From positions 186,001 to 250,000 of the forward strand of contig JAPDRO010000011.1 in assembly GCA_030247885.1 (NCBI GenBank): 64,000 nucleotides of DNA, given 5' to 3'. The position numbers were made by a program, and so were the translations under genes. The notes below the pieces were generated by a model, which was not told where the DNA came from, did no database searches, and worked only from the letters and a program-made list of their open reading frames with translations. This stretch comes from Taxawa tesnikishii (nom. ined.). Taxonomy: Eukaryota; Ascomycota; Dothideomycetes; Dothideales. This document shows positions 1,013 to 52,900 of the stretch, piece after piece. The first letter of the stretch is position 1. Each line of letters opens with the position of its first letter.

Positions 1013-3887
1013 TCAGACATCCCTCGCAACAACCCCCGCCCCATTCTCTCTGCTGACTCGATCGATACCAACCCACTCCCTTCCATCTCTGCCTACATAT
1101 CTTCCAAAGGCGAACCTCGGCTCCTCCAGCACGCCCATGCCGGCCACAGCCGTCAGCCTCGCTCTTCCAAAGCCTCTCACGCTATCCGCAAGGCTGACCT
1201 TGCTGCCCGCAACCCTCTGATCCTCATGCATACTGACCCTCTGCCCATCCGGCGCGCTCAGTAGTCTCGTGACCAGACTCGTCTTGGTTGCCGGAGCACG
1301 GAACGCCATGTCGGTGAGCAACCTGCTCTGATGCACCAACGCGATGACGTCAGCGATAGAGCGCGCCTCGACGGGCAAACCGCGCTTCTTCTTCGATGTG
1401 TAGATGAAAGTGTAGGAGAGCGCGTACAGGACCAAGAAGACGGTGAGGGCATAGAAAGCTGGCATGTGACCGTAGACACGGACGCGTTGCTGAGCGACGG
1501 AGAACTGGGCCCAGAAGACACCGCCTGCAAGGATGGGCAAGGTTGCTGCGAGTAGGGTGGTGAAGCTGAGGAGCGCGACGCGGTAGTGGCGGTTGGTTGT
1601 CGCCTTCAACGTGACGAGTACCAGGCCGTCGGAGGGATAGGAGAGGAGAAGGGATTCTTCAGCGAGGGCGCCGTCGGGTTTACGAAGGCTGGCGTAAGGC
1701 TGCAGACGCCTGAAGGCAAGGTCGATAGAGTACCAGAAGAGGAGGCAGAAGAGTCCGAGAATGGCGGGGATGAAAGAGTAGAGGAAGTTGGCAGAGGAGA
1801 ATCCGGCGGTGTTGACGGGAACTGGAAGGTCGGGTAGGAAACCGGAGCGGATGGCGGTGGCGGGAAGGTAGGAGACAACGAGGAACGCCAGGAGCAGAAC
1901 GATAGCAGTAACGGCCCACAAGGTGGTGAAAGTGGGCCGGAGGAACCAGGGAAGGTAGACAGGCGTTGACTCAAGTGGGTTGATGGGCGCCTTGGAGTCG
2001 TAGGTACCATGGCTGTGTCGTTGAGACTCTGGATCCGTGTTGGTGTTGGAGTACCGGCTTGTCGGAGGGGCAGCTTCTCGCGGATACGCCCATCTTCAAG
2101 CATGTACTGACGTACTGGGCGGTTCGGCGCACCGAGGGTGTGGAAGATTTCGTTCGGACGTTGCGAAGTGTGCCAATAGCCAAGGCTGTCCAGACGATCC
2201 GCAAGCCGCTCGCGCAACTCTGTGTGATCGCTATGGATGCTGTGTTGAGCGTAGGTGTCCAGGACATTGCTGCGCTCGAGTAAGACCAGAATGTCAGCCA
2301 TGCTGACAGGATCCCACTTGAGTCCAGTTTGTCGCTTCCGCAGGTAGATGAAAAGAGCAACCAACGCGGCAAGGAGGAAGACGTAGAGGACAATTGTGGT
2401 CCAGATGGTGCCCTGAGTGGCCAGCCACACCCACCTCTGCCTATAGTAGACGTTGAAGCAAGTAGCCAGAAGCGGAATGGTGAAGAGACTAAGCCAGGAT
2501 ACGAAGAGAAAGGTACCAATGACCAGCTGGCCGGCCTTGAAGTGTGCAAAAGTTGGCAATGTGAATCCGGAAGGGTACATTGGCAACAAAGGCCCGTGGC
2601 TTCTGCTCGCTGGCGAGTTGCAAGTCAGAGCAATGAAAGGAGCAATCCTGTAGACTGCGAGTTCAATCTCGAACAGCCAAAGAAGAAGAATCATCCCCAG
2701 CAACGTTGGCAGATACTGGAAGACGAAATAGCGGCCATCGCCAAACCCGCCGTAGTCCCACAAACTGGTGTGAATGCGTGACCATATGGCGCAAAACATG
2801 AGAGCGGCCAAGAAGAGAGTGAGGAGGAGGATGTATAATAGTAGTGATGCAGGCCGCAGTATGGCAGGTAGGAATCTCAGCGGTTGCTGGAAGGAGTCGG
2901 GCGCAGGATCGAAAGGTACGAAGAGCTCAGGTACAGGTGATTCTGGGACGGATTAGCTTGTGTCAATGGGAAACGGCAAGGCTGCTTCGCACAATACATA
3001 CGCTGAGTCGGAGGCTGCGCACTACTGCGTCTGGGAGAGCGCGGCGGTATGGGCAGAGGTTCGTCGAATCTCTCATAGTCATGTGCACCAAAGGCCGCCT
3101 GCGGCGATGTTGTGCAGTTCTTCAGCTCTTGTGTGCCACTCGTCGGGTCCGGAAGGGGTTGGTATTGGATCATGCAAGCCAAGGATCTCGTAGCTCTTGG
3201 GCCGTCCCCGCCGGATAAACGTTGTCCTGGATAGGCTCTGCTGCCTCTCACTTCCTCGTCTCTCGTCAACTGGTCCAGAGCGAAGTGAATATACGGAGTG
3301 TCGTCCACTCCCGGTGTGGGCGCGTTCTCCTCACGGCTGATCTCCTTGGCGGCAGAGCTCATGGAGAATCTCGGGTCAATGGGTGATTTGCTTGGTGTCG
3401 ATGCCTCGTAGACTGTGCTTGGTACCGGTTTCCTTCTGATTGGGGAGTGTCGTCGTCCAGTCTGGAGCGGGTGAGGAAGTGCGGGCACTTTGTCCATGGC
3501 GGATCCCGCTTGACGGGCTCTCTCGGTAGAGGATGACCGTCTCTTTCCCGTCCCTCGCATGGGAGACTGCTGCCGCTCTGGTGATGGGTTGGCAACATAC
3601 TCACGGGATTGTGAAGGTGTCCGGTATCGGGAAGGTGGGGTCTGGAATCTCTGAATAGGAAGGAACGACTCGGATCTTTGTCGGTCTTCGGAGTGTTGTG
3701 AGGTAGAGGAGAGGGAGTAGTAGTCTTCTGACGCTGCAACTGATCTGGCAGAACTTGTGTGCTGCAGAGTGGGTTGCGACACTGTGGCGTTGCGCTGTCA
3801 GCACTTTCCATGTGATCCTACAGTGACAGTCGCAAGCAACTTACCGTTGGTTTGCTTCAACTGGAGAGCCTCGAGAGAGGAAGTCAT
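1013..3887 (-). CDS. DUF3433 double-repeat integral membrane protein
   Basis: Fungal membrane protein of unknown function with two copies of the DUF3433 unit (paired hydrophobic helices, then a loop and an R-S-I-A-D or S-M-A-D motif before a helix). I read exons 3887-3845, 3781-3002 and 2942-1013. Intron 1 starts GTAAGT and ends CACAG; intron 2 starts GTATGT and ends CCCAG after a CTAAT branch site. The first 270 residues are a Ser/Pro-rich, probably disordered cytosolic tail. Between the repeats the frame slips by one base near the C4 run at 2067-2070; one more C would join the upstream REKLP to a downstream SRYSNTNTDPE in continuous coding, giving about 917 aa. The break could instead be an unrecognised intron, but no good donor-acceptor pair fits the phase. 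Family assignment is by recognition of the repeat; the cellular role is unknown. Confidence 0.8.
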
Positions 3888-4444: not shown

Positions 4445-5652
4445 CTACAACTTCCAACCCTTGACTATGCCCAACCCGCCCTTTTCGTTGCCATAGAGTG
4501 GCATCGTTCCGGGCGTACCCGCCTGCGCCCTTTCCATGATCTCTAAACCCATCTCCAGTTCTTTCTCAGTGACGGTCAGCGGTGGTGCGATCCTGAAGGT
4601 CCCGCCGAACGACGGCAAGGTGGCAATCTGAGCCCAGATGCCCAGCGCTGTCATTTTGCCTGCGATGGCGGCTCCTAGTTCAGGCGCTGCCGCTTTGGTT
4701 ATGGGATCACCAATAATCTCAACACCGGCCATCAGGCCCCGTCCACGGACATCCCCAATGCAGCCATATCTGGAACGACGCCATCCCCGTCGTGCTGGAA
4801 CCCGAACATATCTCCGGATCTGCCGATGGCCGTCTGGGCTTCGTCCACAATCAACAGCATGTTGCGCAGTTCGCAATGCCTCTTCAGGACTTTGAGGTAT
4901 CCATGTGGCAATGGATGCATGCCGGCAGAAGACAGGATCGGTTCTACGATTACAGCAGCCAAGGATCCTACGGTTTGCTGGTCGATCAAGGAAAACCCAT
5001 AGTCGAGCTCCGTCCGCCAGTCATGGCTTCCATCTGCGTTGCGAAAGATGGAGCGGTACGCGTTCGGGGACGCGAACATGAAGCTACCCGGTGTCATCGG
5101 TCCGTAACCGGGACCTCTACTATGGTACGTGGCGGCGTTGGCGTCAGATGTCATGCCATGCCAACCGCTTCGAAGACCGATGATCTCGAACTTTCCAGTA
5201 TACAGCTTTGCAAGTCTGATGGCAGCTTCGTTGCTCTCCGGGCCTACAGACACAGTCAGCAAGTCATTTGAAGCTTCGATCGTCCGTTGAGCACACTGGC
5301 CTGTAGAGAGAAATAGAGCTTTGTCAAGACCCTCAGGTAAGAGACTGGTAAGTCGTTTTGCCAGATTGACAACAAGAGACGAGACCATGGGGCTGAACAG
5401 GTGATCGAGGGACTCTGCATGTTCGGTGATTGTCTTGACGATCTCAGGGTTGCCATGGCCGATCAAGCAGGATATTTGACCAGACGTCCAATCCAGAATA
5501 CGATGACCAGAGCTGGTCGCTATGTAGCTGCCTGTAGCAGACGTGACGAGCTCCGGATGGAATGACGTGCCAAAATTCAGCAGCGTCTGCTCACCTTCCC
5601 GTTTCAGCTGTTCAGCGTCCTCTGCTGAAAGACTCGCATATGGTCCGGCCAT
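4445..5652 (-). pseudogene. Class III PLP aminotransferase lacking the lysine segment
   Basis: Relative of fold-type I class III aminotransferases or dialkylglycine decarboxylases. The start at 5652 gives a good N-terminus. Visible blocks are the T-G-S-Y-I/D-W-T-S-G-Q region, the STG cofactor loop, GLRSGWHG, and a VDEAQT motif that supplies the cofactor aspartate. At about 4763 the reading passes straight from VVPD to the C-terminal GCIGDVRGRGL block in another frame. About 95 residues usually lie between these, including the Schiff-base lysine (S-K-T-L-G) and the T-H-x-S-D-P loop, so catalysis is not possible as read. A 57-base in-frame insert at 5300-5244 interrupts the STG/ESNEA junction. 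It ends CTGAC...TGTAG like an intron but would need a GC donor. Either a real deletion pseudogene or a collapsed assembly segment. Confidence 0.75.
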
Positions 5653-5704
5653 GTTTCTACGCTACGTAAGAAGTAGCGTGAGCGCTTGTGAACGAAGATG
5701 AATA

Positions 5705-5732
5705 GACAATTGACAATCGACAATTGACAATT
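5705..5732. repeat. 7-bp tandem repeat (GACAATT)x4
   Basis: Four head-to-tail units of GACAATT, the second ending in C, lie 53 bases upstream of the aminotransferase start. They sit in the region that also faces the Zn2Cys6 remnant. Short unit, nearly perfect copies; possibly a variable promoter microsatellite. Confidence 0.85.
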
Positions 5733-6153: not shown

Positions 6154-6177
6154 GCGGGCAACGACGCGGCGTCTTCT

Positions 6178-9098: not shown

Positions 9099-9966
9099 CT
9101 ATGCTCCCTTCACCTCTCCATCCGCCTTCTCCCCGGCGCATCTCCTCAACACCGCCGCCAACTTGTCCGGCATGCTCAAAAAGGACTATGCGAGCATTGC
9201 AGGGTGTACTTTTCAAATCTATCCTCGCCCGTCTCACGCACCATCATCTCCTGCTCGGACAGTCGGATGGCCTTGTCCTCACTGCAGAACACGTATGCCG
9301 CAGGGACGTCTCGCCAGGGCTCATAGGTGACACTGAGCCCGGCGGCTTGTGCGGGCATGATTTTGAGATGCTCGACGGCGGAGGCGGCGAGGGGAAGAGG
9401 GACATCGTGGTAGAAGAATTCGATGGGACGGTGGGTGTAGAGGACGCCGTCCTGCGGCTATAATGTCAGAGACTGGAATCTGACTGCAGCATGCGAGAGA
9501 CGGGCGGGCAACGTAGAGATGTAACAAGCTCTAAACTGTGCCACGGGTGGGAACTCCGACTTACTTTCATCAACGGCCGCAGCTCAGGTTCGCCAGTGAG
9601 CATAAGCCCTCCGCCTATCTTCGGTACGAAAGCCGTGACATAGACCAATTTCACCAGCCTCCCTTTTCGCTTTCCTGCCACGCTCTTCAACACCTCCCCA
9701 ACAGCCTCAGTTCCTTGGAATCCACCGAAGCTGTGCATGACGAGAATTACGTCATTCCGCTCCAACTCGCGCTCTAGTACGTTGCGGATGGCCTTGAGAT
9801 CATCGCTATACTGGTATGTGGCGATGTCACCGCCGTAGCACGGTAGCGTGAGGGCTGCGACCCGGTAACCTGCCTCTTCGAGATACTTTGTAGTGAAGGA
9901 GAAGTGCCAAGCGGAATGATGGGCGCCGGGCACGACGACGAAGGTTGGCTTAATTCTGGGAGCCAT
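9099..9966 (-). CDS. Alpha/beta hydrolase, small esterase-like
   Basis: Serine hydrolase of the AB_hydrolase_6 type, related to methylesterase-like fungal proteins. ATG at 9966; exon 1 runs 9966-9565 and exon 2 from 9457. The intron has a GTAAGT donor and a CTGACATTATAG end. Seen: an HSAWHF oxyanion-type loop after VVPGAH, the nucleophile elbow HSFGGF near residue 79, and SHSPF carrying the likely catalytic His. Directly after SHSPF the frame meets TGA at 9176. The A5 run on the plus strand (9178-9182) is the obvious place for one lost base. With it, LSMPDKLAAVL follows and the protein ends at 9099 with 253 aa, the expected C-terminal helix. As read it is 227 aa and keeps its triad. Substrate unknown. 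Confidence 0.75.
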
Positions 9967-10459: not shown

Positions 10460-12220
10460 TTAATGGTGGCCCAAATCGCCGCTTTCGGCAATGCTCTTCT
10501 GGCAAGCAGCTAATATCCTCGCCTGCTTTGCCACATCGCCCAGTTTGCCAATGACCTCCTTGTTGCCGTCTACGAATCCATACAGCGCGTACGGAATCCC
10601 AACATCCTGGCAAAACTCCTGCACCAGTCTCTGCGTCCTGCGGAGGTTGTGCCTCGGAATGCGTGGGTAAAGGTGGTGAACAGCCTGGAACTGCAGGCCA
10701 CCGTGAAAGAAATCGAGCCACTCGGGACAGTCGACATCCATTGTCGTTCTCAGCATGCGCTGGGGGAAGGATTCGCCGACGCCGAGATCGGCAGTGCTCA
10801 TAGCGAAGTGGCTGAGTGTGATCTGGACGTGCAGAGGCATGGTCACCATGTGGCTGACCATGATGAAGGCAATGCGTCCCGATGTCGTGGGGATGCTCTT
10901 GTAGACAATGCCATATCCAAACCATGTCCAGAAGAATACCTGGCCGGCAAGCTCGAACCAGCGATGCCACCAGGCAGGACCTTTACGTGGCCCAAGGCCC
11001 AGAAGGAGGTATTCCCAGCTCAATCGGTAGAGGTTGAAGCGTCCGAAAGTCAAAATAGGATAGTATAGATAGTGTTGGTACTTGATCATGAACTTGGCGA
11101 ATGGGTCATAAGTCATAATGCGGTCGTAGTAAGTTGATCGTAGGGAATCGAAGAATCGATGCGAGATGGCGAAAAAGGCATGTGCTCGATATCTGGGTCG
11201 TGTTCAGGTGAGTTAGTGACGATGTGGTGGACGTTGTGGTTGCGCTTCCACCAGCCTAGACTCAATCCTCCCAGGTAGTCTGCAATAATGACACCAATGA
11301 TGGTATCGATGGTGAAGTTGTGCGTGATGCCCATATGTCCTGCATCATGGGCAGTGAAAACGAGTTGATGCCAGAACGCTCCAAGAAAGAGACCGCTGAT
11401 GCTGTACCAACCCCAACGAAGGGTCAGGAGACACATGGCGAAGAGAAAGGTGTATCTGCAGAGCTCGATCATGTATGAAGAGTAGCGGCAGTCGTAGAGC
11501 CCTTCTGCCCGTATCCGTTGGTTCAGGAGCCGGTATTTGTGTACAATCTCTGCCTGGGTCTTTGAGTCCAGAGCCGGGTATTTTTCCAAGTCCTCTTGAA
11601 TATCTCGTTGTGTCCTCTTCTCCCCATCTGTCTGTTTCGATTCTTGAGACTGCTCTTCCAATGCCAGCGAGGAGAGCGAAGTGGCTGATGACGAGCGCGA
11701 GACGTCCTGATCAGGATTCCGCCTACGGAGCGAGTCCACAGGGTACTCGGCGGGTTCGAAGATAGGAGAAGGCTCTCCAGAGCTTCCCTGGCTCGACGAG
11801 TCCTGCTCGTCGGAGGTTGCACATGCTGGTGATTGCTCGTCATCGGAAACGTCTCTTTTCCGAAATACACCGCCCTGAATAGGCGGAAGGAAGTTTGTCC
11901 ATGGGCCCTCGATCTTGCCAATCTGGTAAGCTCCCATGCGGCTCAGTGCTTCTGCTGAGTGAAGGCTGTCAAAGTCAGTCTTTCGCGCTTCAATGCCCCG
12001 TGCCGTATGCCACTTACGCATGCACTTCATCGGAAGCATCCCGACCAACCATGTGCAGGATAGCCTTGTCTCCACCGGGATGGTACTTCCGCCATGGGTC
12101 TGCCTTGAGCACTTTGCCATCGAGGATAAAGACGGTGCGGCCTTCGGCAATAAGTGCTTCAATGTCCCTCCTGGAGAGTATCGTGTCCTTGCGGTTGGGG
12201 TAACGCGTGGCAGAGGCCAT
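10460..12220 (-). CDS. Cytochrome b5-fused front-end desaturase (delta-8 sphingolipid type)
   Basis: Membrane desaturase that introduces a double bond into the long-chain base of sphingolipids in the ER. The ATG at 12220 is chosen because MASATRYPNRKD leads straight into the b5 domain. The haem motif HPGGD is at residues 47-51. Exon 1 is 12220-12018; exon 2 starts 11965 after an intron with GTAAGT and CTGACTTTGACAG. After a charged linker come membrane helices and the three His boxes HDAGH, HNVHH and QAVHH, the Gln-type third box being diagnostic of front-end desaturases. Between the second and third boxes the frame slips at the T5 run (plus-strand A5, 11172-11176). One more T joins EHMPF to FAISHRFFDSL and gives about 569 aa, normal for the family. 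Delta-8 specificity is inferred from overall resemblance. Confidence 0.85.
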
Positions 12221-13678: not shown

Positions 13679-15882
13679 ATGGCCGCCAGCCACTTCCAGG
13701 ATCAGACGAGGCCTACCATGGACTCAATCGCCGGAAGCCCATCGGTCCTGAACCCCGGCCAAGCAGGAGCAAAGTCTAATGCTCTGCAAAGCCGGATAAC
13801 CAGCGTTCTGTCCGCATCATATGCAGACCTTGAGATCCGGGATGCGCTGGAAATGCTTGACGCGCGCCATGTTCACAACACAGCAGAAACTAGGCGGAAC
13901 CTCAGACTCGATGCTCAGAAGGAACTCATTGAATGCAACGGGGATGTGATTAGGGATTTCGGTCAGGTTGCGGAGGTAAATTGTCTCTTTCGTTTCCATA
14001 TGATCAAATCCGGAGCTGAATGGTGGTACAGCAACTCAAACGAATTGGTACCGCGATTGCAGGCCTAAATGCCTCGTGCTCTGCCCTACGGTCTCATATT
14101 ACTGCAGCTTCGCGTGAAACAGGACCGATGCTCGAAGAATCGGCCAGTCTCACGTTGCAAAAGCGGCACGCCGAGACCAAGCAGCAGCTGTTGTCGGCCT
14201 TTACGTCACACTTCCTGCTCTCAGACGGCGAAGTCACCGCTCTGACATCGACCGCGGAGCCGGTAACGGACGCCTTCTTTGCCGCTCTTGCCCGCGTGAA
14301 GAAAATCCACAGTGACAGCCAGGTCCTTCTCGGCACCGAGAACCAAAGGCTGGGACTCGAGATTCTGGACCAAAGCTCCAAGCAGCTCAACGCAGCATTC
14401 CAGAAACTGTTCAGATGGACACAACGCGAGCTACGGACGTTGGACCTCGAGAACCCCCAGCTGAGCGCCACGGTACGCCGCTCACTGCGTGTTCTGGCCG
14501 AGAGGCCCGCGCTCTTCCAAGGCTGTGTGGACTTCTTCGCCGAAAGCAGGGAGCACGTCCTCAGCGACGGCTTCTATGCCGCCCTTACCGGTAAAGCGTC
14601 AAGCGGCAAGGCCATCGAGCTCAGCGCACACGATCCCCTCCGCTACGTCAGTGACATGCTCGCGTGGGCGCATTCTGCGACTGTCGGCGAGCGAGAAGCG
14701 CTACAAGTCCTCTTCATCGGCGAAGGCGAGTCGCTTCAACAGAGCATGCGCGCGGGCCGCAAGAACGAGCCCTGGCTTTACACCTCCACGAGCGCCGAAA
14801 AGGACGATGCAGAGGAAAAGTATGCAGACGCTCCCTTCGACGGCACGAAAGCGCTGCACGACCTCGTGGACCGCGACCTCTCAGGCGTAGTGCGGCAGCT
14901 CCGTCAGCGCATCGAGCAAATGATCCAGAGCCACCCAGACGCCACCCTCTCCTACCAGATCGCGAACTTGGTCTCCTTCTACTGCGGCATCTTCGCCTCC
15001 ACACTCGGCCCGGACTCTGCAATCTTGAGCGGTCTGGCTCCGCTGACAGACGCCGCTATGCAGGCCTTCCGCACCACGACGCGCGACCACATCGCCAACC
15101 TGCACGCGGACGTCGCCGTGCCCTCCGCCCACGACCTCGGAGCGCCCGAGTTCCTGCTCGAGGCGTTGCAGACGCTGAAGACGCTGATGAGGAGCTACGA
15201 CACCTCGCTCGCCAACTCCAGCTCCGCCACCGGAAAGGGCGAGGAGGATGGCTTCGCGACCGTGCTGACCGAGGCCCTGGATCCGTACCTCGCCGGCTGC
15301 GAGAACGTCGCCAAACGGCTGGGGACGCCGCACGGTGCGGTTTTCGCCACCAACTGTCTGAGCGCTGCGAGAGGGGCGCTGGGCGGCTATGCGTTTACGG
15401 CGGAGAAGAAGGCGGAGCTCGAGGACACGATCGAAGAGGTCGTCGAGAGGCTGGAGGACGCGGTACACCACTGGTTCTTGCGCGAGTCCGGGCTCAAGCC
15501 GCTGGTGGACGAGTTTGAGAACTGGGAGCCGGATCTGGTGGCGCTGGAGTTTGATCGGTTGGAGCAGTTCGAGGTGCTGGAGCCGGAGAGGTTGGCGAGG
15601 ATGGCGAGGGAGTTGGATGCGTTTTTGCCGGGTGCCATGGAGGATGCGAGGGCTTTTGTGGGGCAGGTTGAGGATAAGGTGGTGGTGAGACGGGTTTGCG
15701 AACGGGCGGCGGATCGGTTTGTGGTGGAATTTGAGAAGCTGGAGGCGATCTTGAGGAGGGTGGATGAGGTGAGGTTGGAGAAGGAGGACAAGAGGGAGGA
15801 TAGGGATGAGGAGGATGAGGTGCTGTTGGTTAGGGATGTGTTCCCGAGAACGAGCGATGAGATCAAGGTGCTGTTGAGTTGA
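13679..15882 (+). CDS. COG6: Conserved oligomeric Golgi complex subunit 6
   Basis: Subunit of the eight-protein COG tether, which captures retrograde vesicles at the Golgi and keeps glycosylation enzymes in place. Two exons, 13679-13975 and 14032-15882, join in phase 0 through a 56-base intron (GTAAAT donor, GTACAG end) to give 715 aa, the usual fungal size. The N-terminal half contains the helical block with [20 protein letters not shown] and, after the junction, [20 protein letters not shown] with [12 protein letters not shown]. These are hallmark COG6 segments. The C-terminal half is acidic and helix-rich, ending in [13 protein letters not shown]. The ATG at 13679 is the first in frame after an upstream non-ATG opening. 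No frame damage despite 2.1 kb of coding. Its 3' neighbour on the opposite strand is the BolA gene, 309 bases away. Confidence 0.92.
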
Positions 15883-27834: not shown

Positions 27835-29159
27835 TCAGCCGCATCGAGATGTACCACCAATGCCGTGTTGTTCGACCGACGCATCCGCATCCAGCTCCCA
27901 GCGTTCGATGGTGTCCGTGTCCTCAGCGAAGATGTCGTCCCATTTGTACTGCAAGCCAGGCGGACACGTCTTCTGGTCATCCCAAAGCCACAAGCGCAGC
28001 ATATGTCTCTTCATGGTTGGGGAGTCCTTGAAGTCGTCACGGCAGTGCAGGAGTGCGAGGTTGTTCACAAAACGCATGTCGCCACTGTGAAGACTTGTAC
28101 TCAAGGAGTACTTTTGTGCCAAGAAGTGCACAGCATCGAGCGCTTCGGCCTGGGCTTCTGTGATCGGTGGAATGTTGCTGAGACGCGGGGCCGCGGTCGA
28201 ACCGGTTATGCTGCGCCGAGAGAAGTTAAGAATGGGTGAACCTTCGTGACAGAACAAAAGCGGGCGCTGTCGGTAAGGTGGGTTACGTGCGAGTCTGATG
28301 CCCTAGTCAGTTACAACAATCGTAAAGCAAGTTTGACAATCTGACATACTCCTGGTGAACCCAGTCATCTTGAGCGAGTGTTTGTATGATATCAGGTCGA
28401 GTTCTAGCGAGCTCATTGTAAATTCTCCAAGATGAGGCAAGGATGCTCCTGCCACCTTCTGCTGCCGCATTCAAACAGTAGAATGCCAAGACGCCACAAA
28501 GGACGTCAGCGTGAAACGGTTGGGCGTCATTTCCGAATATTGTTGACCTCTTGTCACGGGGTATGGAGGAGTTCGTAGCATCGAATATGTGATCTGAAAG
28601 CAAATCAGAACCGTCAACCCCTTGCATACATGCTACACTTACTTATCATGCCTCCTTTAACGTCCTGACGTCCTCTCCGCTCCGAGATATAGCTAGAAAT
28701 CCCAAGAAATATAATCACATTGTCTTCCATCGGGTAATTGGAAGGGTCAAGCCCGCGAAGGATGAAAAACCCTACACCTTCATCAATGGATGACTTGTAA
28801 TTCTCCAGGACAGGTCCAAGCTGCGGTAGCGGAAAGCATTCTTTAGTTATTTTGGAGTACTCCAAATGAAGAGCTACGACAGTCAGCATATGGCGCCTGT
28901 TTCTTGTCAAGAATGGACCACTAACCCTTGCAATAATCGAGAGCCCTCGATATTTCGGCCTTTGCCCTTCCTCCAACTCGAACACATACTGCTTCTCATC
29001 CATCATGCCTCGACCCTCCCAAACCAGAGGTCCGTACAACTCTCGAGGCCACCCAGAGGGAATCGTCCCTTTCGCGAGACCGTTGGTGGAAAGGAATGCC
29101 GACCGGGCGCAATACTTGTCGTAGTCGGGGATCAGGTCGATATCGGCAGAATTGAACAT
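27835..29159 (-). CDS. TauD/TfdA-type Fe(II)/2-oxoglutarate dioxygenase
   Basis: Non-haem iron dioxygenase of the fungal TauD group, oxidising an unknown small substrate at the expense of 2-oxoglutarate. Four exons: 29159-28926, 28873-28643, 28593-28350 and 28294-27835. Introns are 49-55 bases. Seen: WPRELYGPLVW near the N-terminus, GFFILRGLDPSNYPMEDNV, the metal pair in PFHADV (about His183/Asp185), AAAEGGRS, FCHEGSPILNFSRR, and the distal His in ALLHCRDDF near 320, followed by the 2-oxoglutarate Arg region RHMLRLWLW. In exon 1, near 28957-28963, one base is missing: after it the frame EISRALDYCKAL is needed, both for family fit and to give the donor its correct phase. With it the product is 389 aa. 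The Zn2Cys6 regulator lies just upstream on the same strand. Confidence 0.82.
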
Positions 29160-29581: not shown

Positions 29582-32357
29582 TTAGGTAAAGGTCGGTTGC
29601 TCCGAGCTCCAATTGGTGTGAAACAGCTGACCGGTGAAGTACCCTGGCAGCCAAAAGTCCGTTGGAACACTCTGATTGGCTATTGGGGCGTTAGACGTGA
29701 TCTCGAGGGACTCTTGCATCTGGTCATACCATTTGCATTGTGTGCCTGCAAAATAGCATCAAGCATGCCGCGTCTTTGTTCATCCAGAGGGGCTAGTCCT
29801 TTGACCTTGATCTTGGCAGTGAGGACGGCCGACCTTCGGACGTAGCAATGGAAGTAATGGAGCAAGTTGAATGTGGCGCGCAATACATTGCTGATGAAGG
29901 CTTTGTTTGTGAACGTTTTCTAAGGACAGTCAGTGACACACAGCAGCCATTTTGTGGTTCTCACGTACCAGGTAGCCTCGCTCAATGCTGATCTGCTTCT
30001 GTTGCGCCAACGCTCTTTCACAACTATCCAACAGAATGTAAGTCGTTAGAAAGATGGTAAACCAATCCTTGCCATAGTCTTTTTGAATCATTGCAACAAG
30101 ACCCGACATAATCTGGCTATGCAAGGCGGGCAAAATGTGATTCTGGAACAGGGAACCAAATTGATAACTCAGCAAGTCGGTAATCGGAACAATACCATTG
30201 GCGTCAGGGGAAACACCTAACGTTTCGGTGCCGAGGAAGCACCAACCTCCTTCAATGCACCGAGCTGCTGACCAGAAGTACAGGGCATCTCTGAGTGTTG
30301 GTATCTGTACGTATGGGTGAGCTAAGGACCTAGTCTGTGGATAGGCGTTTTACAGACCTTGCATTCCTTAGCCAGTTGTTTGGCGCCTTCAAAGACCAGG
30401 GCTGTCACGCGCTCCTTATCATTCGCACTCATGATTGAGACATCGTACTGGGCCCTTTCCCGTAAGTGCCGTTTTGCAGCCAAGAGAGCGCCATCTAGCT
30501 GAGACAGGCCATAGGCGTGATTGTACATGAGCCAGCCGTCGGGGTCCTCCGCCTGAAAAGCTAGGCTGACGGTGAACCCATGTACAACCAGGGGAACGAA
30601 CAGGCCATTGCCTTGGGTCAACTTGATCTTTCTGACCTGCCCCGGGGACCATTCCTGAACATATTTGAGAAGACCAGCGTTTTTGCCACAACTGGGATGG
30701 TGTCGGTATTGAGCCAGAGTACTGGTGGTGCGAAATAGGACAGAGTTCTTATAGTCCTCTAATTCAACTACGCGGCATGCGGCGCTGAATTGCAGTTTGC
30801 GCGAACAAACAGGATTACCCGCCCTCGTTGTCAATTTGGCGCATTTTTTACACGGTTTACTAAGATCCTCGGAATCGTAATCACACTATAAGGTCAGCGA
30901 GCTGTATTTCCGATCGGATCATGGATCTTACTAACCCCTTCTTTGGACTTTCTGCACCTTACACAGACGAGTCCTTTCCTTTTCATGTAATTCATTCGTT
31001 CCTTCTCTGTGTCGGTGTATTTTCTCTTTTCTTTTCGCGGCTTTCTGATACCCGCACTAGCAACAAATGCTCGGTTGGTGACTCGAGTGGACGTCCGCTT
31101 CTTCTCAGCGGCTGAAGTTCTATTGCGCTTGGTGATCTTCGCTTCGCAAGGATCGACGGCCTCTAGGAGTGGATCTGGTAGCTTCATGTACTGAGCAGGG
31201 TCTTGACTGGTTCCTTCGCCGCCAAGCAACGGGTGCGACAGGTCATGATGCGGCTGAGACTGGCCTCGTGTATGAGGGGTGGTAGACTGGAGCTCACTGT
31301 CCAAGTCAAAGACCGAAGAAGTACAACCTCGAGACGTCAGGCTGTTGTCAAGGACTGCGAGACCGCCGATAACTTAACTAAATTAGCTGATATCTCTAGA
31401 TGCAGTCGTCGCTCTCTGGAATAAGTAACGAGTGCGTACCAAAACCTGTTCCCGGCTCCGAAGGCTGAAGCTGCTCTGTAGTCGCAGACTGAACAGGTAA
31501 CGCAAAGAGATTGTTGACTGTAAACTCCCAAGGGTCTGCGCTATGTGATGAGAATCTATGCGCAATATTGCTCTCCCTATACGTACCGACGAACGTGCCG
31601 TTATCACAAGACTCAGTCGTAGTGGGATGGCATGGAGCATCCAATAGAGCTTCTGGCTGTCCGCCACACCCTCCAGTTGGGTGCTCGTAAGGCCTGTCCT
31701 CCTTGCAGGCCAGATCCGGATCACTTTGCTGGTCTGTGCAACCTGAGAGTTGGGATGAGGATTCGGTGCCACTAGACTGTGACTTTATCTCCTCAACTTG
31801 CGGTGTAGCATAGCATGAGTCTAATGGACATCCAATAGTGACGACGAATTGAGTACCAAAACCGGATAACTGCTGCAGTGGGCTGGAGTCGTCCTTGAAG
31901 ATTGATGTGTCAAATAGTGGATTGCTGTCAACGGACAGGCCCTGAATGTTTCTGTTGTCAGTCCTGATAACGACTTCATCATATTCCCGGGCAGGCGAGT
32001 CGAATTCGCACAAGGGAACAGTGACAGGGGATCGCAAATTGACACCGGCGCTACCGCTAGAAACCGGATATAGCAGCTGGTTTGACCCCGATTCCCACTG
32101 AAACTCATTAAGATTACCGATACGTTCCAGAGCGTTAAAAGGTGTGGTCCATGTTTGCTTCTATGGACACCGTTTGTTTGATCTCGGTTGAAGGGCAGCA
32201 AACTTCGCTGCTCCAAAGGTGACAAGTCTGTACCTGCCAACCGTTTTGAAGAACGTGTATTCTGGATTTCCACGACACGCTGACGAATGCTCTCCAACTC
32301 ATCATCGTCCAGATAACCCAGTTGCTGCAACAAGGCTTGTATATGAAAAGGCGACAT
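29582..32357 (-). CDS. Zn2Cys6 transcription factor with central DNA-binding domain
   Basis: Fungal zinc-cluster regulator. Five exons fit: 32357-31440, 31372-30936, 30885-30358, 30304-29969 and 29919-29582. The cluster is split by the second intron. CVRCRKSKEG precedes it and CDYDSEDLSKPCKKC follows, with the sixth Cys in RAGNPVC, so the last spacing is long (11). A Lys/Arg block lies just before. The N-terminal 450 residues are Ser/Thr/Gln-rich and contain an L-G-Y-L-D-D-D-E-L helix; the rest has the helical character of regulator C-termini, ending TDFWLPGYFTGQLF. Two single-base losses are inferred: near 32145-32165, and near 29725-29735, where the QESLEITSNAP frame must be reached. With both, the length is about 852 aa. 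Tandem placement with the dioxygenase suggests, but does not prove, local control. Confidence 0.7.
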
Positions 32358-36967: not shown

Positions 36968-38221
36968 TCAGCTGTTGTGAGTAGGTGCCGTCTCTGGCGT
37001 TGGCGTGGTGCCTCGCGAGATCCCCGACGTCAAAGCACCGTCAGACACAGACATCTGATCGACCGCACGACTCTCTTCCCCGAGAGCCGGGTCAGGAGCT
37101 TGTATTTCGGGTTGAGGGGATAGCGGTTGCGCCGGGTCTTCATGCCCAGCAATGACCCTAGCCTCCTTGTAGTCGCTGTACCACTTCTTGTTGCTCTCGC
37201 CATCGAACGAGAACAGCGACCAATGCTTCATCATCCTTTCCTGCTCCCCTTTCAAGTCGACACGCGCGTCCGGGCTACCATGCGCCTGTCGTTGGGAACA
37301 CCGCTGGCATCATTCTTTGTCGGGTTTCCTTGAATTACGCTGATGTGGTAGCCGATGGAAATTTCGAATGTTATCACGCCAGAGGAGGAGTCTTTGGTCA
37401 CTCGTCTCCTGGCGTCGAAGTCGAAGTCGTGTACGACAAGCCACGTGCTCAGTACGAGTAATATGACGGTGTAGATCTGCGTGAAGAGGGTGCACATGCC
37501 GAGGACCAAGATATGTGCGCCGGAGAAGGTCCAACCGATCCACCGAACGAAGTGGTAGAAAAAGGCCTTGGATCCGAGCTGGAGTTCCCAGGTGAAGGTC
37601 CGTACGATGCTCCAGGGCGCTTTGGCGGTGACCATTTTCCCGTCTGCGAGTGTGATGAGAAGGGTTTTGATCTTTTGTCTCTCTCCTCTGCTTTCGTTTC
37701 GGGTTGAGCCATGTTGTCCAGGGCATGCCGGCGCAGGTTTATCAGGGTTACCTGCACGACCACGGATGCGATGATTGCAATCGCGTTGCCCAATCCATAC
37801 CAATCCCCGGTGACGATTGTGCAGTCCACAAGTGGCGTAACAACGGTGAAACTGACGAGGAAAGTTAGCTATTCTAGATGATAGTAGTTGTGAGCATCCT
37901 GCTGCAGCTCGAACTTGAACTCTGTAGTCGCGGTACAAAGCTCCTGCGCCATCAAGCCGTAGTAATCCCATCGGTCACGTTGTACAGTGTGAATCCGGAC
38001 TGCGCAGACGTAAAGCGGTCTCCAGCAATGACAAAGTCACCAAGAAGAGGAAGGTATTCCGTCAGACGGCGTTTCTGCAGTGTGCCGATTGCGCGGTCGA
38101 CTTCTTCGTCGCCCAGCAAAGTCACAAGACCCAAGGCGTCGACGCGGATGGGGTTCCATTTCTTGATGTGGTCCCACGGCATGATAACCCCGACGCCTGA
38201 TCGCTTGCTGGGCAGCGACAT
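36968..38221 (-). CDS. Multi-span fungal membrane protein, frame disrupted
   Basis: Conserved-looking protein of unknown function. From ATG 38221: a cytosolic start (KRSGVGVIMPWDHIKKW), a helix-rich part with EEVDRAIGTLQKRRLTEYLP, helices including TVVTPLVDCTIVTGDWYGL, a beta-like segment TLLITLADGKMVTAKAPW, more helices (GWTFSGAHILVLGM, FTQIYTVILLVL), and a soluble tail HWSLFSFDG. The pieces lie in successive frames. Three single-base losses reconnect them: near 37957-37958, at the T4 run 37665-37668, and at the G3 run 37294-37296. One TAG remains after NYYHLE near 37873. It sits just before CTAAC...CGTCAG, so a 63-base intron with a weak GTTC donor could remove it; otherwise it is a true stop. 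Length would be about 400-418 aa. Confidence 0.55.
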
Positions 38222-38983: not shown

Positions 38984-41900
38984 ATGTCCCTCGACCCTAG
39001 TAATGGTCGGCGCTCTGTCTCACCTTCCAGCAGCGCTGGGCGCTCCTCACCAATAACGCGTCCACCTCGCCGAGCCGAGGACGGTATGTGCGTTTAGCTG
39101 AGCGCTTTCAATGCTTGCTGTTTCTGATCTTAGTAGGTAACTCCAAGAAGGACAAGACCTATCGCCGTTATGCAGCTGGCATAGAGCGCGCTCTGGCGAC
39201 TTTCGATTCAGCCCAACAGGAATGGGCCGATTACATTGCCTTTCTGGCGCGCCTGCTCAAGGTGCGATTTACAAACAGCCATGACTGGAGCAATATTAAG
39301 CGTACAGAAACAGGCAATCCAGGCTCCTCCCCCAGCTTCGATACCCTCCCGGACGCACCCACAGTTGCGCTTAGACTGGCTCAGTGCTTGAACCCAGCAC
39401 TGCCCTCTGGGGTTCACCAGAAAGCTTTGGAAGTCTACACTTGCATATTCGCCTTGATTGGAGTACGTGAATAAGACAATACAGGATGAGCAGAGCTTCG
39501 CGGCTAACTACAACACAGAAAGATGCTCTTGCTCGCGACCTCCCCATCTATCTTCCTGGTCTCTCTCCCACCCTCTCTTTCGCTTCTCTCACAGTACGGC
39601 CCCTGTTCTATACCGTGGTTGAGGATCACATACTACACCTCGAGCGGTACGATCTGAGGCGCGCAGTCAAGACCCTCATACTCAGTCTGTTACCTGGAAT
39701 CGAGGATGAAACAAGTGAGGATTTTGAAAGGGCTCTTAGTATACTCGACAAGCTTCGGAGAGTTAGCGGGGGCGGTGGTACGGAAGGATTGTACCAAGGC
39801 TTCGAAGACGGATATTTTTGGCAATGCTTTTTCCTTGCCGTCATCACAGGTACATCGCGCAGGCAAGGCGCCCTAGCGTATCTTACACGTCGGTTGCCCA
39901 ACTTCACACCGCCGAAACACAGCCCTTCTGCTAAGGACAACGGCAATGGAACTGAAACCGAGGGACAGGTTACTGCGCTCTCACCGGCTGCGCAGGCTGT
40001 CGTATCGCCCGAGCCAGGCCTGCTCATACGCTGTTTTGCGGCTGGACTTCTCGATGGCCAAATGCTTGTGCAGCGTGGTTTCCTAGATTTGCTTGTAACG
40101 CATCTTCCTCTGAACTCCCCGATTCTACGAGAGACGATAGACCGGCCAGACCTGGAGCGCCTGGTATCAGCGGCTGTTGGTGTGGTCCTGAGAAGGGATA
40201 TGAGTCTCAATCGAAGATTGTGGTCTTGGTTCCTCGGTCCTGACATGGCCTCAGATGCACGTGAAGGAAGCCAGCCAAATTCTCCCGTTGATGAGAAGAA
40301 GGATCTCGCCCAGAACGCCATTTCCAGTCAGGTCACTTACTTTCAGAGATACGGCGCTGCTCCGCTTCGCAAATCCATCTTCACCCTATTACGCCAGGAA
40401 AACACTAATGCTGTTGATCGAGCCAGGCCTTTCCGCATATGTCTGTCTTTGATGGACCGATGGGAGGTCGGTGGATCGATCATACCAGATCTGTTGTTCC
40501 CAGCACTCGATAGCGCGTTCCGCTATAGCTTGACTGGTTCGGAAAACGAGATCAGCGAGGTCATCAGAAGCGCCAGTTTGTTTTTCGATGGTGTTGAGAG
40601 CGATCTCATCTGGACGCGCCTTATTGAAATCATTGTCTCAATCTTCGACGAGATCGAATCTAAGCCGGTCGACGCCCTTCACAATCTAGCTTTCCTTAAG
40701 TTCATCATCGGTCGCTTCAACGTCCGCGAAGAAGACATGCTTTTACAGCACATGCCGAATGCAGCACTCGTCATTGCCAGCCGGCTTGCAGTCGACTCGC
40801 GCCCATGGACACCGCAAAACCAATCTTTTTCGCTTCCATGCTCAATATTGTGAGTGAGCTTGTGCGAATGATACCTGGCCGCGCGTTCTCTGCTAGCAAG
40901 CGGGCAGAGAGCACACCCACCGCCGGGAGTTTACGGGCGAGCGAAGGATATACTGCAGCTGCAGAATTGGTTCTTGCATACTATTCTCATGAGGACGTCG
41001 ATGATTTGGCCAAAAGACAGGCACTTGATCCTTGGCTTCGTGGAGAATACCTCACTGGCAAACTGACCGAGGCTCTCGTACGCGCTCTCCATTCCAACGC
41101 TCATCTGTCTCACATTGACACATTGGCCGGGCTCGTTACCACCCTTTTGGCGAAGGTTGGAAGCTGCCAGATTGTACGTGATCTGGATATATACAAGTCG
41201 TTTGAAACAGCACTTAGCCCGGATTCGAGTGCGGCTCACGCTACAGAACCGGTTAACTTTTCTGTCATGAGCTCCCTCATGACTATTATACTACATGCCA
41301 GGATAGGAGATGAGACAACGACAGTGCTTAACCCAGATCAAGTCAAAAACCTCGAACCAGCTCTAATGAGCCAGCTATGGAGCTACTTGTCTCCTTTCCA
41401 ACCGAAACATCACGTGGAAACTGCACGTCTAATATGGCAACTGGAAGCTTTGACGACGGACGACAAGCGAGTCGAAGCGCAACTTGCTGAGTTTGTTTGT
41501 GAAGGTTGCCAGAAGCAGGACCACGAGACTGCAGGGAGGTTCGCAATACTGTGGGACTACACGATGCAAGCTAGTACAGCACGAAGCGACAAGGGTGGTC
41601 GTATGCTCACCCGCCGAGTCAGTACCATGTCTGTGATGAGCGACCTGGGCAACAACGTGGATCCCGAACGGGTGTTGATACGCCCGTTGCTGCTCTTGCT
41701 CGACTGTCTTCAAGATGGTTATGGTGAGGCTACAGTGTTTGTTCGCACATGGTTACAAAACGTATCAAGCCTGGACAGAATTATTGGCATCCTCCTGTCG
41801 AGATTGCAGTCCAATTTTGGTGATTACAAGAGGGGTTTGAAGAGGAATGTCACACGACGGCAGACGCATCGGGATCGGGAAATCGATCAGGATATCAGAG

Positions 41901-46054: not shown

Positions 46055-47571
46055 ATGGTCAGGTTAAACGCTCTCCAATGGCTTTCGCTGTCTTCATACG
46101 CGCTCTCTGCGAGCGCAATCACCTTAGATGTCACCAGTGCTGGTAAGAGATTGCTCCCAAAGACAGCACACAACTTCACGGCTAACATTATACAGACTCA
46201 ATCAAGAGCGCCGCCAGTCAGGTTGCATACGGAATGATGAAGTACTACACAGGCAACAGGACCGGCGATGTACCCGGAAATCTGCCCGCTCCATACTACT
46301 GGTGGGAAGCTGGCGCCATGTTCGGAGAGATGGTCGAGTACTGGTATTACACCAACGACACCACCTACAATACAGAGGTCGTCCAGGCCTTGCAACACCA
46401 AGTCGGAGATGACGACGATTTCATGCCCTCAAACCAGACAAAGTCGGAAGGAAACGACGATCAAGTCTTCTGGGCTTTCGCCGCGATGAGCGCTGCCGAA
46501 CTAGGATTCCAGGACCCGCCCAGCGACGACGATCCATCTTGGCTTTCCCTTGCGCAAGCTGTCTTCAACGAACAAGCCGAAAGGTGGGATACCTCAACCT
46601 GTGGGGGCGGTCTGCGGTGGCAGATCTACCAATTCAACAGCGGCTACAACTACAAGAACGCCATTTCCAATGGAGGCTTCTTCCAGCTTGCGGCAAGGTT
46701 GGCAAGATATACAGGAAACTCGACGTACGTGGACTGGGCGGAGAAGATGTGGGATTGGTATACTGGCACTGTGTTGTATGATGCGACGGACTTTCGTGTG
46801 TACGACGGTACCAGCACGACGAACAACTGCTCCAACGCCGATCATACGCAGTGGTCGTACAGCTACGGGACGTTCATTGCGGGACTGGCATACCTATACA
46901 ACCATGTAAGTCGGCGTGAATTTGGATTTATGCAACTATCACTGTGGCGTCGAAAGCAAGTATAAGCTGATCTTGTCCTCCAGACGGAAGACTCAAAATG
47001 GATGACACCTCTCGACGGCATCCTCAACACAACCCTCACCACCTTCTTTCCGACGAGTATGGGCGACAAAATCATGGTCGAGGTCGCGTGCGAGCCATAT
47101 GGGACCTGCGACAATGACCAAAAGACGTTCAAAGCGTACCTCTCCCGCTGGCTGGCCGTCACGGCTCAACTCGTGCCCAGCAAGTACGACACTATCTTCG
47201 AGTACCTGAAAGCATCCGCTCAAGGCGCGGCAGGCCAGTGCGACGGCGGCACTGACGGCATGACATGCGGCAAGGAGTGGAACACGACGACCTGGGACGG
47301 CACGTACGGCGTCGGCGAGCAGATGAGCGCGTTGGGCGTCATCCAGTCGCTCATGATTGATGTCGAGGACAAGAAGGCGCCCCTGACAGCAGACACGGGC
47401 GGAACGAGCAAGAGTGACCCGAGTGCCGGGACCGGGAGTTCGACGTCGGAGGAGAGTGCTACGTCGACAAGGAAGATTACGGCAGGAGACAAGGCAGGCG
47501 CGGGAATCCTGACGGCGCTTCTGGTGGTCGGAACGCTTGCTGGTACTGGATGGATGTTGATGAGTGATTAG
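46055..47571 (+). CDS. GH76 mannan endo-1,6-alpha-mannosidase (Dcw1/Dfg5 type)
   Basis: Cell-surface enzyme thought to trim the GPI glycan core and transfer GPI proteins to wall glucan. Three exons: 46055-46142, 46196-46905 and 46984-47571, giving 461 aa with clean phases. The signal peptide covers about 20 residues ([14 protein letters not shown]). GH76 marks: [18 protein letters not shown], then [11 protein letters not shown] with the adjacent catalytic Asp pair at about 117-118, [23 protein letters not shown], and [13 protein letters not shown]. The C-terminus has a Ser/Thr/Gly-rich stretch, then a hydrophobic tail ending WMLMSD, which fits a GPI attachment signal with the omega site in the Ser/Gly/Asn-rich part. 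Likely located at the plasma membrane outer face or wall. No frame damage. Confidence 0.92.
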
Positions 47572-48350: not shown

Positions 48351-50170
48351 ATGGAGAGCCGCACTCTGGAACCCATCCGGACTGGAGGGAGAACGGAACG
48401 CCCAACCAACAGACGGAGCGCTTCCGTGCGAAGTGCCACCAGTTCGAGATCACGACGGAGCAGGCCAAGCAGCCCCCATCTGCAACGTATCTACTCTTCG
48501 CACTATCTGGACGACCACAACGTTTATGACCACGAGCATGCTGCCACAGACACGGATAGTGAGCAGGACGAAGAGGAGGATGACGAGCGCGGGCTAGAGT
48601 CACAGGAGAGTTCCGAGGAGGAAAAAGAGAAAGAGGAGAAGGAGGAGCCAGACATTGTGCCGGAGATACAGGGCGCCGTGCCTGACGAGAGGGATCTGGA
48701 GGCCGGCCGGCCAAAACTGGAGAAGAAGGCTACCACTCGTTCAACAAGATCGTCAAGGGACCCCAACCTCGTGACCTGGGATGGCCCCGATGATCCCGCA
48801 AACCCCAAAAACTGGACTAAGAAGCAGAAGTGGGCTGCAACACTCGTCGTCTCCTCCTTCACCTTCATCTCTCCCGTGTCTTCGTCAATGGTTGCGCCTG
48901 CACTCGGTACCATCGCAAGGGAATTCAACATCACCGATTCAGCCGAGCAGTCTCTCGTGCTCTCCATCTTCGTCCTGGCGTATGCCATTGGCCCCTTGTT
49001 CTTGGGACCTTTGTCTGAGCTGTACGGTCGTGTCAGAGTCCTGCAGATCGCGAACGCATTTTACTTCGTCTGGAACCTTGCGTGCGGGTTTGCAACTTCA
49101 AAGGGCCAGCTTATGGCGTTTCGCTTCTTGGCCGGCTTGGGCGGCAGTGCTCCGCTTGCCATCGGTGGCGGTCTTCTCAGCGACTGTTGGAAGGCCGAAG
49201 AAAGAGGTCGCGCCATCTCCATCTACTCCTTGGCTCCGCTCCTGGGTCCCGCCATTGGCCCCATAGCAGGGGTTTCATCACCGAGAACACTACTTGGAGG
49301 TGGTGTTTCTGGGCGACGTGCATAGCGTGTGCGTGTATTCAGGTCTCTGGTCTATTTTTCCTGCAAGAAACCTACATTCCGGAACTCCTCAAGCGCAAGA
49401 AGAATCGTCTGATTCGAGAAACCGGTAACACGAAACTCCACACAGAGTTTGACGACCCGGAGAGGTCGTTCAGCAAGCATCTCCAGACTGCACTCGTCCG
49501 TCCTTTCCGCATGATCGCTACCCAACCCATTGTCCAGGTTCTCGCCGTATATATAGCATACGTCTACGGTATAATGTACCTAGTGCTCTCCACCTTCCCG
49601 GGTCTTTGGACGGGAGAGGATTATTACCACGAATCCATCGGCATTGGTGGTCTCAACTACATCTCCCTGGGTCTCGGTTTCTTCCTGGGTACGCAAATCG
49701 GCGCGCCACTGAACGACCGCTTCTACCGGAAACTCAGGCAGCGCAACAACGGCGTCGGCCGCTCCGAATTTCGCGTCCCCCTCATGTTTCCCGGCTCGAT
49801 CCTGATCCCCATCGGCTTGTTCTGGTACGGCTGGACGGCGCAGACGCACCAGCATTGGATCCTGCCCAACATCGGTGCTTGCATCTTTAGTATCGGCAAC
49901 ATCATGGTCTTCCAGTGCTGCCAGACGTACATTGTAGACGCTTACACGAGATTCGCCGCCAGTGCCGTCGCATCGACAACGGTGCTGAGGTCGCTTTGCG
50001 GATTCGGATTCCCGCTTTTCGCGCCGGCAATGTATGGCGCTCTTGGCTACGGATGGGGCAATTCCCTGCTGGGATTCATTGCCATAGGATTGGGACTGCC
50101 GGCTCCGTTCCTGCTATGGAACTTTGGCGAGAAATTGAGAGCCAAGTCCAAGTTCGCTGCTGGTGGCTGA
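48351..50170 (+). CDS. MFS transporter, DHA1 type (polyamine/multidrug)
   Basis: Proton-driven exporter of the TPO/FLU1-like group. ATG at 48351. The first 160 residues are cytosolic: a Ser/Arg-rich start and a strongly acidic segment at 66-102, as in polyamine exporters. Then DPANPKNWTKKQKW leads into helix 1. LGPLSELYGRVRV is the loop 2-3 signature, and GPAIGPIAGGFI is motif C. The second half begins PFRMIATQPIVQVLAVY. At the G4 run 49269-49272 one base is missing: motif C GPIAG joins GFITENTTWRWCFW only with one more G. With it the protein has 606 aa and 12 predicted helices. No splice signal can explain the shift. Substrate not inferable beyond the group. Confidence 0.85.
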
Positions 50171-50735
50171 GTCGATTGCGTTGCGATGGGGGTTCAAGTT
50201 TCTTGGGTTTGCTTGTTTTGCGTATGTGGTGATTGCGTTTTTCTTGAGCGTGGCGTTGGTGGGTAGGTAGATATCCTAGCGTGGAGCGTCAGGCAATAGC
50301 ATCCTGACAGTAAGAAACGAAATTAATCCTATTCTTCTACAGCACTTGACTCGGACTGCTTGTTCTAGAAACCCGCCGTATATGCCTGGGAATCGGACTG
50401 CATCATCGCTGTGTTCCGGTTCACCATCAGCCTCCAATCTTTCATCTTTTGAGACGCTCGGTTATACGAAAAAGATATCAAGCGGAACGTAATCTGTCAA
50501 GTCGAACTTGACTGCGCTGGAGGGATCGAAAAGAACAGCGGTTTGGCTGCACAGTGTAGTTGACTAGCGAGATGGGCTCTTCGCACAAGCCATGAACTAA
50601 ATACAATTGGATGTAGATGCCCAGAAACCAGTAACGGATTGGTTGGTGCACATTAGCCTCTCCCGGTTTTTCAACCGAACAAGCATGAGCGCGGATGGAC
50701 TGTTGGAAACAACCTATCCGAACCCGTGTACCGAG
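50171..50735. other. Convergent intergenic gap
   Basis: 3' sides of the transporter and the C2H2 gene. No gene supported. Confidence 0.5.
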
Positions 50736-52900
50736 TCAGTTGGCTTGATCTTCAGCATTCGATCCAGTCCTGATCCGGAAATCTCTCAGCCATTCCGGGT
50801 TGTCGGCCACTGTCTGATTCCAGCTATCTTCGCAATCACTGAAGCACACTCGCCTCGATTCTTGCTGAAACATCTCATCGGTTGGTACCACGCCCCGACT
50901 CATCAGCTCCCGCGCGAAACGACTCAAATGAAGGGTCAGCATCTCTGTGAACGCATTGATTCCGCTTAACTGAGTGTCGTCTGTAACCGGCTCAATAGGT
51001 GCATCTTGCGCTGCTCCCTTTATCCTCGAACAGATCTGCTGGTACTGATCTCTAGAGTGAGGGTTGGTAGCAGAGAAAGGTACTAGGCTCTTCGATTGGG
51101 ACCCGAGGAGGTAAGGCGGCATCGCGTTGATAACGCGAGACGCTACGGCAGCGTCAAAGCCGTGGTCTCCCTGCCAGTCACTCATAGTTTTGCCATTGCG
51201 AAAGTGCGCTGCCAGGTGGCTGGCTCGTTCATCCCAGCTGCTCAAGGTGGTGTTACAGAAGCCGCATCGAGACGCGACTGGCATGCCCTCAATTTTCCAA
51301 TCGTCAATTACCGGTAGCGTATCAAGCCGATGCACCAGTCGAAGATGTTGAACAAGATGGTCTTTCCGCCGGAAAACAGGGGCATCGGCTGCGGTACCTT
51401 GACATGCATGGTAGTTGTGTGTCTCGAGATGTTCGGGAGTTGGGTCAAGTGCGCTGCAATACGCGCAGTGCACTCTTCCTGTGTGTTCCATGACCACGGA
51501 AGCACCGTGCGGTGCGCACCTCCACTCCTCCATGTTCAGATGGAGCGATTTCTCATGTCGTACCCAGTCGTACTTGTGTTTGAACGTGTCGCAGCAAAAA
51601 GTACACTGGAAGATGCGCTCTTTGTCCGTGGCAGTACGCTGACTTGGACGCGCCCGGCTCTTTGCAACCCGCGTGCTTCTTGAGCGTTGGCTACGAGATG
51701 CTGATGAGGCACCGGAGTGTATTGAGCCTCCAGAGCGCCTGGAGGAGGCACTCGTGACGCTATCGAAACTCGTCTCGGATGCTGTCCGGCGGGGTCTCCG
51801 GGTGGAGCTGGTCCTCCGCCTAGGTTGAGTGCCCCTCTCTCACCGGCTGTGCCTCGGCCTGGTAGGTCCAGGCTTGTATCTTGTAAAGCATTATATATCG
51901 CGGATAAGTTTGCCGCTTCGTCTTCGGGTGGCGAATTCTGCCATCTCTGAAGAGGATCACCTGAGGCCGGCCCGGCCCAGGTGTTCACGAGAGCTTCTGA
52001 CACCGGAATCCTGATCGGCGTGGACACGCCTCTGCTTCCTGAATTCCGGATTCGATAGACGCTCCTCCGTCTCGGAAGTGAACGCTGCGAGGATGAATAA
52101 CCGCGATGAGCTGGAGAATCATTGAGCCATGTCGCAAGTTCCCCGCGAAGGTTAGTCGACGGAATCGCATCTTCCGTGAACGAGGTGGGCTGCGAGGTGA
52201 CATCGTGCCACATTCCGCTTCCTGAACCAGCGTTTTCACTACCAAAGCCCGGATCGGTGAAAGCCCACCCATTCTGCCCGTATGTCGCCTGGACATCGCT
52301 GAGGTGTGCAAGAGGTGATGCCTCAGCAGAATTCGGAGCCCATCCAGGAGGTGTACAGCTCAAATCTACAATAGCATCTTCAGGTCGTTGCTGGAAGTAG
52401 TCGCTGTTGAAATGGGGCAAAGGTGGAGTGAGTACTCGGCTGGAAGATTGACACGGCTCGGCTGGATAAGGAAAATTCTGCATCGAAAATACATCGCTGT
52501 CGTTTGGCGCATCTAGGGACTCAAGGTCAAGAGTAGTTTCGACTGCACCTGTAATTAGTAAAACCGAAAGTCCATGAGATCAGTGGTCTCAGCAGTCAAT
52601 TGAGAGGCCAACCATGTGTTGTAGCAGGATATGCTAGAGAGTCGCTGAGATGACATATAGTAGAAAGAAAGGATCTTGGTTGGGATACTGCTCGCTGCTG
52701 GAATCCATCTGCCTGTAGAAGACATACAAGAACATCCGGTTCCAGGGCAAGGTACTTACAGATACTGCGCCAAGGCAACTGACTGCTAAGACCACTGCAG
52801 ATGGCATGTTGGCGTGGAAGAACGTACAGCACTGGTCCAGATCCAGGTCCTCAAACTGGAAGGTGTCATCAAATTGACCGCGTCCCGCATTCTGTGACAT
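50736..52900 (-). CDS. C2H2 zinc-finger regulator (fungal, HLVQHLRLVH type)
   Basis: Nuclear DNA-binding protein of a conserved Pezizomycotina family. Proposed exons: 52900-52828 (MSQNAGRGQFDDTFQFEDLD) and 52548-50736, the 279-base gap having a GTACGT donor and TTACAG end; an extra small exon could hide inside. A Ser/Pro-rich middle precedes the fingers: FQCTFCCDTFKHKYDWVRHE, CAYCSALDPTPEHLETHNY, FRRKDHLVQHLRLVH and SRCGFCNTTLSSWDERASH. The finger region ends in WQGDHGFDAAVASR. At the C4 run 51832-51835 one base is missing; adding one G on the coding strand turns the middle into Ser/Arg-rich text that reaches the fingers in frame, giving about 628 aa. Lies between two MFS transporters, so drug or metabolite regulation is conceivable but not shown. 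Confidence 0.78.

Follow-up and report, generated by a model that had tools for sequence, protein, structure and literature searches.

Open reading frames in a 64,000-nucleotide stretch of the Taxawa tesnikishii genome (bases 186001-250000 of contig JAPDRO010000011.1, here C3; the whole stretch is called the window, and positions are its own unless a contig or sample is named) are interrupted by breaks of the kind left by a lost base. These breaks are very probably sequencing or assembly errors, caused by homopolymers being systematically called too short in a long-read assembly that was not polished with accurate reads, and the genes are most likely not dead. An earlier note on the window had judged assembly error likelier than decay. 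That judgement is supported by a loss bias across the genome, by the homopolymer context of the loss sites, by a depletion of long runs and by the breakage of two chaperone genes outside the window.

To locate frame breaks, we used an order-4, 3-periodic coding hidden Markov model (HMM), self-trained on the window and on twenty 10-kb stretches taken elsewhere in the genome (29,367,862 bases in 34 contigs). The gene content and the shortness of the introns suggest a fungal genome. In total, 264 kb was surveyed, comprising the window and 200 kb from elsewhere, with 11 contigs sampled. Each decoded frame change competed with the highest-scoring GT..AG intron, whose score included a branch-point term. 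Transitions with a score difference <3 were classed as ambiguous and left out of the frameshift-like set, as were frame changes spanning >150 non-coding bases from the scoring as a whole. On synthetic coding sequence, planted indels were recovered with the correct sign for 127 of 150 losses and 128 of 150 gains, and 150 unbroken sequences yielded no false call; since losses and gains were found equally well, the detector is without sign bias there.

Frame breaks in the window

The model decoded 16 transitions in the window, which resolved into eight frameshift-like breaks (all -1), six intron-like changes and two ambiguous ones. The three +1 changes all score as introns, so the earlier observation that none of the breaks is a gain holds. 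The eight breaks are as follows.

1989-2077, minus strand: DUF3433 gene; loss-type break, with four identical bases at 2067-2070; intron 6.9 nats worse
4732-4767, minus strand: class III aminotransferase gene; frame change with 73 profile positions absent
11115-11185, minus strand: fatty acid desaturase gene; loss-type break, with five identical bases at 11172-11176; intron 8.5 nats worse
37272-37298, minus strand: gene without a Pfam match; loss-type break, with three identical bases; intron 5.5 nats worse
37638-37698, minus strand: the gene just listed; second loss-type break, with four identical bases; intron 12.5 nats worse
40789-40824, plus strand: DOP1; loss-type break, with homopolymers of four and five bases close by; intron 9.2 nats worse
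49247-49312, plus strand: MFS transporter gene; loss-type break, with four identical bases at 49269-49272; intron 9.1 nats worse
51539-51839, minus strand: putative C2H2 zinc-finger gene; loss-type break, model interval 51614-51643; intron 6.5 nats worse

Profile matches locate several of these breaks closely. In the transporter gene, MFS_1 positions 4-141 and 142-346 lie in two frames and join at base 49271, and because positions 141 and 142 abut there, an intron has no room. The desaturase gene, presumably sphingolipid desaturase-like, carries FA_desaturase positions 5-85 in one frame and 86-250 in the next, with 69 bases separating the matches. Within DOP1, Dopey_N and TPR_DOP1_M share one frame up to 40793 and DOP1_C follows downstream in another; a profile search downstream of the break did not find the remainder of TPR_DOP1_M. 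A complete DUF3433 copy is present in each of the two overlapping open pieces of that gene (1609-2952 and 1016-2095), and the profile itself does not bridge the break. The zinc finger match falls below the cut-off (E 0.025); the two open pieces of that gene overlap at 51539-51839, with the previously noted site at 51832-51835 lying at one end of the overlap, and a loss at 51832 is therefore allowed despite the interval chosen by the model.

The aminotransferase break at 4735, absent from the earlier list, is of another kind. Aminotran_3 positions 12-258 lie in one frame and directly adjoin, in the DNA, positions 332-402 in the next frame, with positions 259-331 absent; this break is therefore not a plain homopolymer loss, and reflects either a real deletion or a collapsed assembly.

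The earlier note had claimed twelve losses, of which seven are supported here (2067, 11172, 37294, 37665, 40796, 49269 and 51832) and five are not shown. One of the five, in an alpha/beta hydrolase gene (9178-9182, minus strand), is plausible, on homology only: Abhydrolase_6 positions 127-207 of 217 end at 9179, the last residue of the upstream piece, the 28-residue downstream piece matches nothing, and within 120-base flanks the model prefers +1. At 28957, an in-frame intron scores best (20.2), ahead of the straight frame (18.0) and of -1 plus an intron (13.0), which leaves the site undecided. The site at 29725 is weak: -1 is the sole positive pairing (6.0 nats), the decoder calls the region non-coding and no Pfam family matches. 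Neither 32145, where the straight frame (4.2) outscores -1 (2.3), nor 37957, where no pairing scores positive, finds support. Runs of at least three were confirmed by eye at 11 of the 12 sites, though runs of three are common. Among the genes described as clean, COG6_C (1-462 of 462) and PRP38 (3-172 of 173) each occupy one open frame, with an ambiguous transition at the 5' end of COG6 (14020-14068); the amidase and Ras (CDC42) genes, with one matched exon each, were partly checked.

Elsewhere in the window, a GH76 gene (46234-47571, plus strand) is split by a stop into two pieces that share a frame, and their spacing fits an in-frame intron.

Loss bias across the genome

The full survey yielded 72 transitions, of which 36 were frameshift-like, 22 intron-like and 14 ambiguous. 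The frameshift-like set comprised 33 losses (-1) and three gains (+1; sign test 2.3e-7), and a stricter cut retained 26 losses and two gains. The window contributed eight losses in 36.2 kb of coding sequence, and the remainder of the survey 25 losses and three gains in 87.9 kb. The two loss rates are indistinguishable (p = 0.70); the window is not special, and the loss bias is genome-wide. The 25 losses outside it fall in 13 of the 20 stretches and on 10 of the 11 sampled contigs.

Four families (Cpn60_TCP1, Proteasome, HSP70 and DEAD) were searched genome-wide by profile. A CCT chaperonin gene on contig C1, presumably CCT5, is interrupted at a G run, where profile position 376 abuts 376, and an HSP70-family gene on C3 outside the window, which we take to be Lhs1-like, is broken at an A run with position 265 abutting 265. 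Given these abutting positions, an intron has no room in either gene. Ten of the 20 chaperonin-family loci from the profile search were decoded, the other ten overlapping them, and frame changes in the decoded ten were left out of the census of 36 breaks. Three cut-looking DEAD-box stretches (L044-L046) were read by eye; two resemble ordinary introns and one is ambiguous, and they add no breaks.

These data bear on the possibility that the frame changes are splice junctions of unrecognised introns. Introns are certainly present, as 22 of the 72 transitions score as such, a plain intron scores best at 28957, and on one occasion the model took an intron for two shifts. However, the shifts of the intron-like transitions are mixed (13 of +1, seven of -1 and two of 0), unlike the 33 to three split among the frameshift-like ones, and introns have no room at MFS_1 or in the two chaperone genes. 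We therefore regard introns as a very improbable source of the breaks.

Homopolymer context and depletion of long runs

A run of at least four lies within the interval at 27 of the 33 loss sites, against 12.1 expected from random coding stretches of equal lengths, and a run of at least five at 10 of the 33, against 2.3. The longest run is of G/C at 20 of the 33.

Run lengths were then compared with expectations from synonymous shuffling that kept the proteins (coding) or from a second-order Markov model (non-coding). In coding sequence, G/C runs of at least six were absent against ~47 expected, and A/T runs of that length numbered nine against ~35. Escherichia coli K-12, as a control, is also mildly depleted in coding runs of at least six (G/C two vs seven, A/T 25 vs 34 expected), so natural avoidance accounts for part, not all, of the depletion. 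Non-coding sequence shows the same tendency, with two G/C runs of 6-11 against ~19 expected and 44 A/T runs against ~71. The sample holds no G/C run of 7-14. Exact G/C runs in the whole genome number 747 of length six, 68 of length eight and 25 of length twelve; the 140 exact five-runs in the sample scale to ~15,600 for the genome. Thus, the G/C counts take a steep step from five to six, with the level at five judged from the sample, and then run into a flat tail. Per contig, C1 (2.83 Mb) has 69 exact G/C six-runs and C3 (1.03 Mb) has 22, against only six on C2 (1.16 Mb); a sample from C2, L005, holds pieces of Tc5/DDE_1 transposons.

Three sampled stretches are AT-rich: L002 (C1:100001-110000), L021 (C20:50001-60000) and L012 (C3:1000001-1010000), at 23, 28 and 40% GC, all with a strong dinucleotide signature resembling repeat-induced point mutation (RIP; TpA/ApT 1.75-1.79). 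The RIP signature was not found in the window (TpA/ApT 0.65). In the AT-rich samples, A/T runs of at least six were observed and expected at 8/15.3, 6/13.2 and 3/2.4, under a second-order Markov model fitted to the tested sequence itself. An exact match to a conserved 18S string was sought throughout the genome and none was found.

Decay and recoding

Real decay, in which the affected genes are pseudogenes in this strain, draws on three observations: 73 profile positions are missing from the aminotransferase at 4735, the RIP-like AT-rich islands indicate that this genome does mutate repeats, and some loss sites adjoin transposon pieces. Of the four loss sites in L005, two adjoin Tc5/DDE_1 pieces, and real decay is possible at these. 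Against decay as a general explanation, the losses are spread over nearly all sampled contigs and break chaperonin, HSP70-family and DOP1 genes, the window is free of the RIP signature, and decay would not make long runs scarce outside coding sequence. Within coding segments, the survey turned up only two in-frame stops, a figure that under-counts because the model penalises stops; the one in the window is the stop between the GH76 pieces. With conserved genes broken and, subject to that under-counting, few in-frame stops, we consider real decay unlikely, with only a small chance of explaining the breaks.

Alternatively, -1 ribosomal frameshifting or transcriptional slippage might restore the frames in the living cell, and would leave the same signature as a lost base. 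All eight window breaks are -1, as this would require, and slippery-type heptamers occur at six of the 33 loss sites, where 1.7 would be expected once run length is matched (p 0.015). An X XXY YYZ heptamer in the upstream frame is nevertheless absent from the other 27 sites, and we take most of the six not to be efficient eukaryotic sites, which counts against recoding. Recoding would, moreover, be required at 33 sites in 264 kb and leaves unexplained why long runs are scarce in non-coding DNA. With heptamers at so few sites and this scarcity unaccounted for, its probability is close to negligible. We assign an equally minute chance to a genome that truly lacks most runs longer than five and in which one-base losses are corrected by slippage in transcription or translation, that is, a fungal genome-wide recoding system.

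Observations that weigh against assembly error

Besides the heptamers and the transposon-adjacent sites, several observations weigh against assembly error. On the side of detection, the model took one intron for a -1/+1 pair (at one of the ten chaperonin-family loci) and itself missed the CCT break, which abutting profile matches revealed; the break at 4735 is of another kind, yet is counted among the 33 losses. No abutting break was found among the Proteasome matches or among the DEAD matches, where 37 of 132 candidates were scored. With respect to run lengths, coding G/C five-runs are low as well (60 vs 143; 8 vs 27 in E. coli). A cap at five should pile up five-runs, yet they are low, and the depletion is therefore partly natural avoidance. 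The sample holds two G/C six-runs against ~6.7 by the genome-wide count and is, being poorer in them, not fully representative. Isolated C15 and C19 runs exist (L003:9837 and L019:5058), and the third AT-rich sample shows no depletion. From the literature, part of PMC7500977 reports that polishing gained bases more often than it lost them, and a section of PMC12007338 describes A/T runs as worse, whereas G/C runs predominate at the loss sites here. The transposon-adjacent sites and the caveat about stop codons slightly lower our confidence in assembly error, which remains very high, and slightly raise that in decay, which remains low.

Probable origin of the breaks and comparison with known systems

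We infer both the long-read origin and the lack of polishing. Contigs reach 2.8 Mb and the 264 kb contain no N, which points to long reads; the earlier suggestion of unpolished long reads is thus favoured, and its other candidate, flow-type sequencing, appears less likely. Under this explanation, long reads, most likely from nanopore sequencing, would have under-reported the length of homopolymer runs, and accurate short reads would not have been used to correct the consensus. A base lost from an exon would then produce a -1 frame slip in the file, not in the organism. A passage of PMC5889714 describes k-mer base callers that limited runs to five, PMC7500977 reports, in part, frame errors at homopolymers in assemblies of a fungus built from nanopore reads alone, and a portion of PMC12007338 gives deletion errors as commonest after runs of 4-5.

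The broken frames are most likely an ordinary artefact and no real biological feature. If the sampled rate holds (33 in 264 kb), the whole assembly would carry some thousands of broken frames, and gene counts, pseudogene calls and family absences drawn from it uncorrected would mislead. The run-length histogram together with the sign of frame breaks offers a cheap check for other genomes.

Programmed -1 ribosomal frameshifting shares the -1 signature of the breaks described here, but differs in that heptamers mark only a minority of our sites and the depletion of long runs extends to non-coding DNA. With long-read homopolymer deletion errors, as far as the cited portions of the literature describe them, the breaks have in common a dominance of one-base losses, consensus runs of 4-5 at the error sites, a depletion of runs longer than five and broken frames in conserved genes. 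Unlike such errors as portrayed there, some G/C runs of 12-19 survive in this assembly, and G/C is involved more than A/T.

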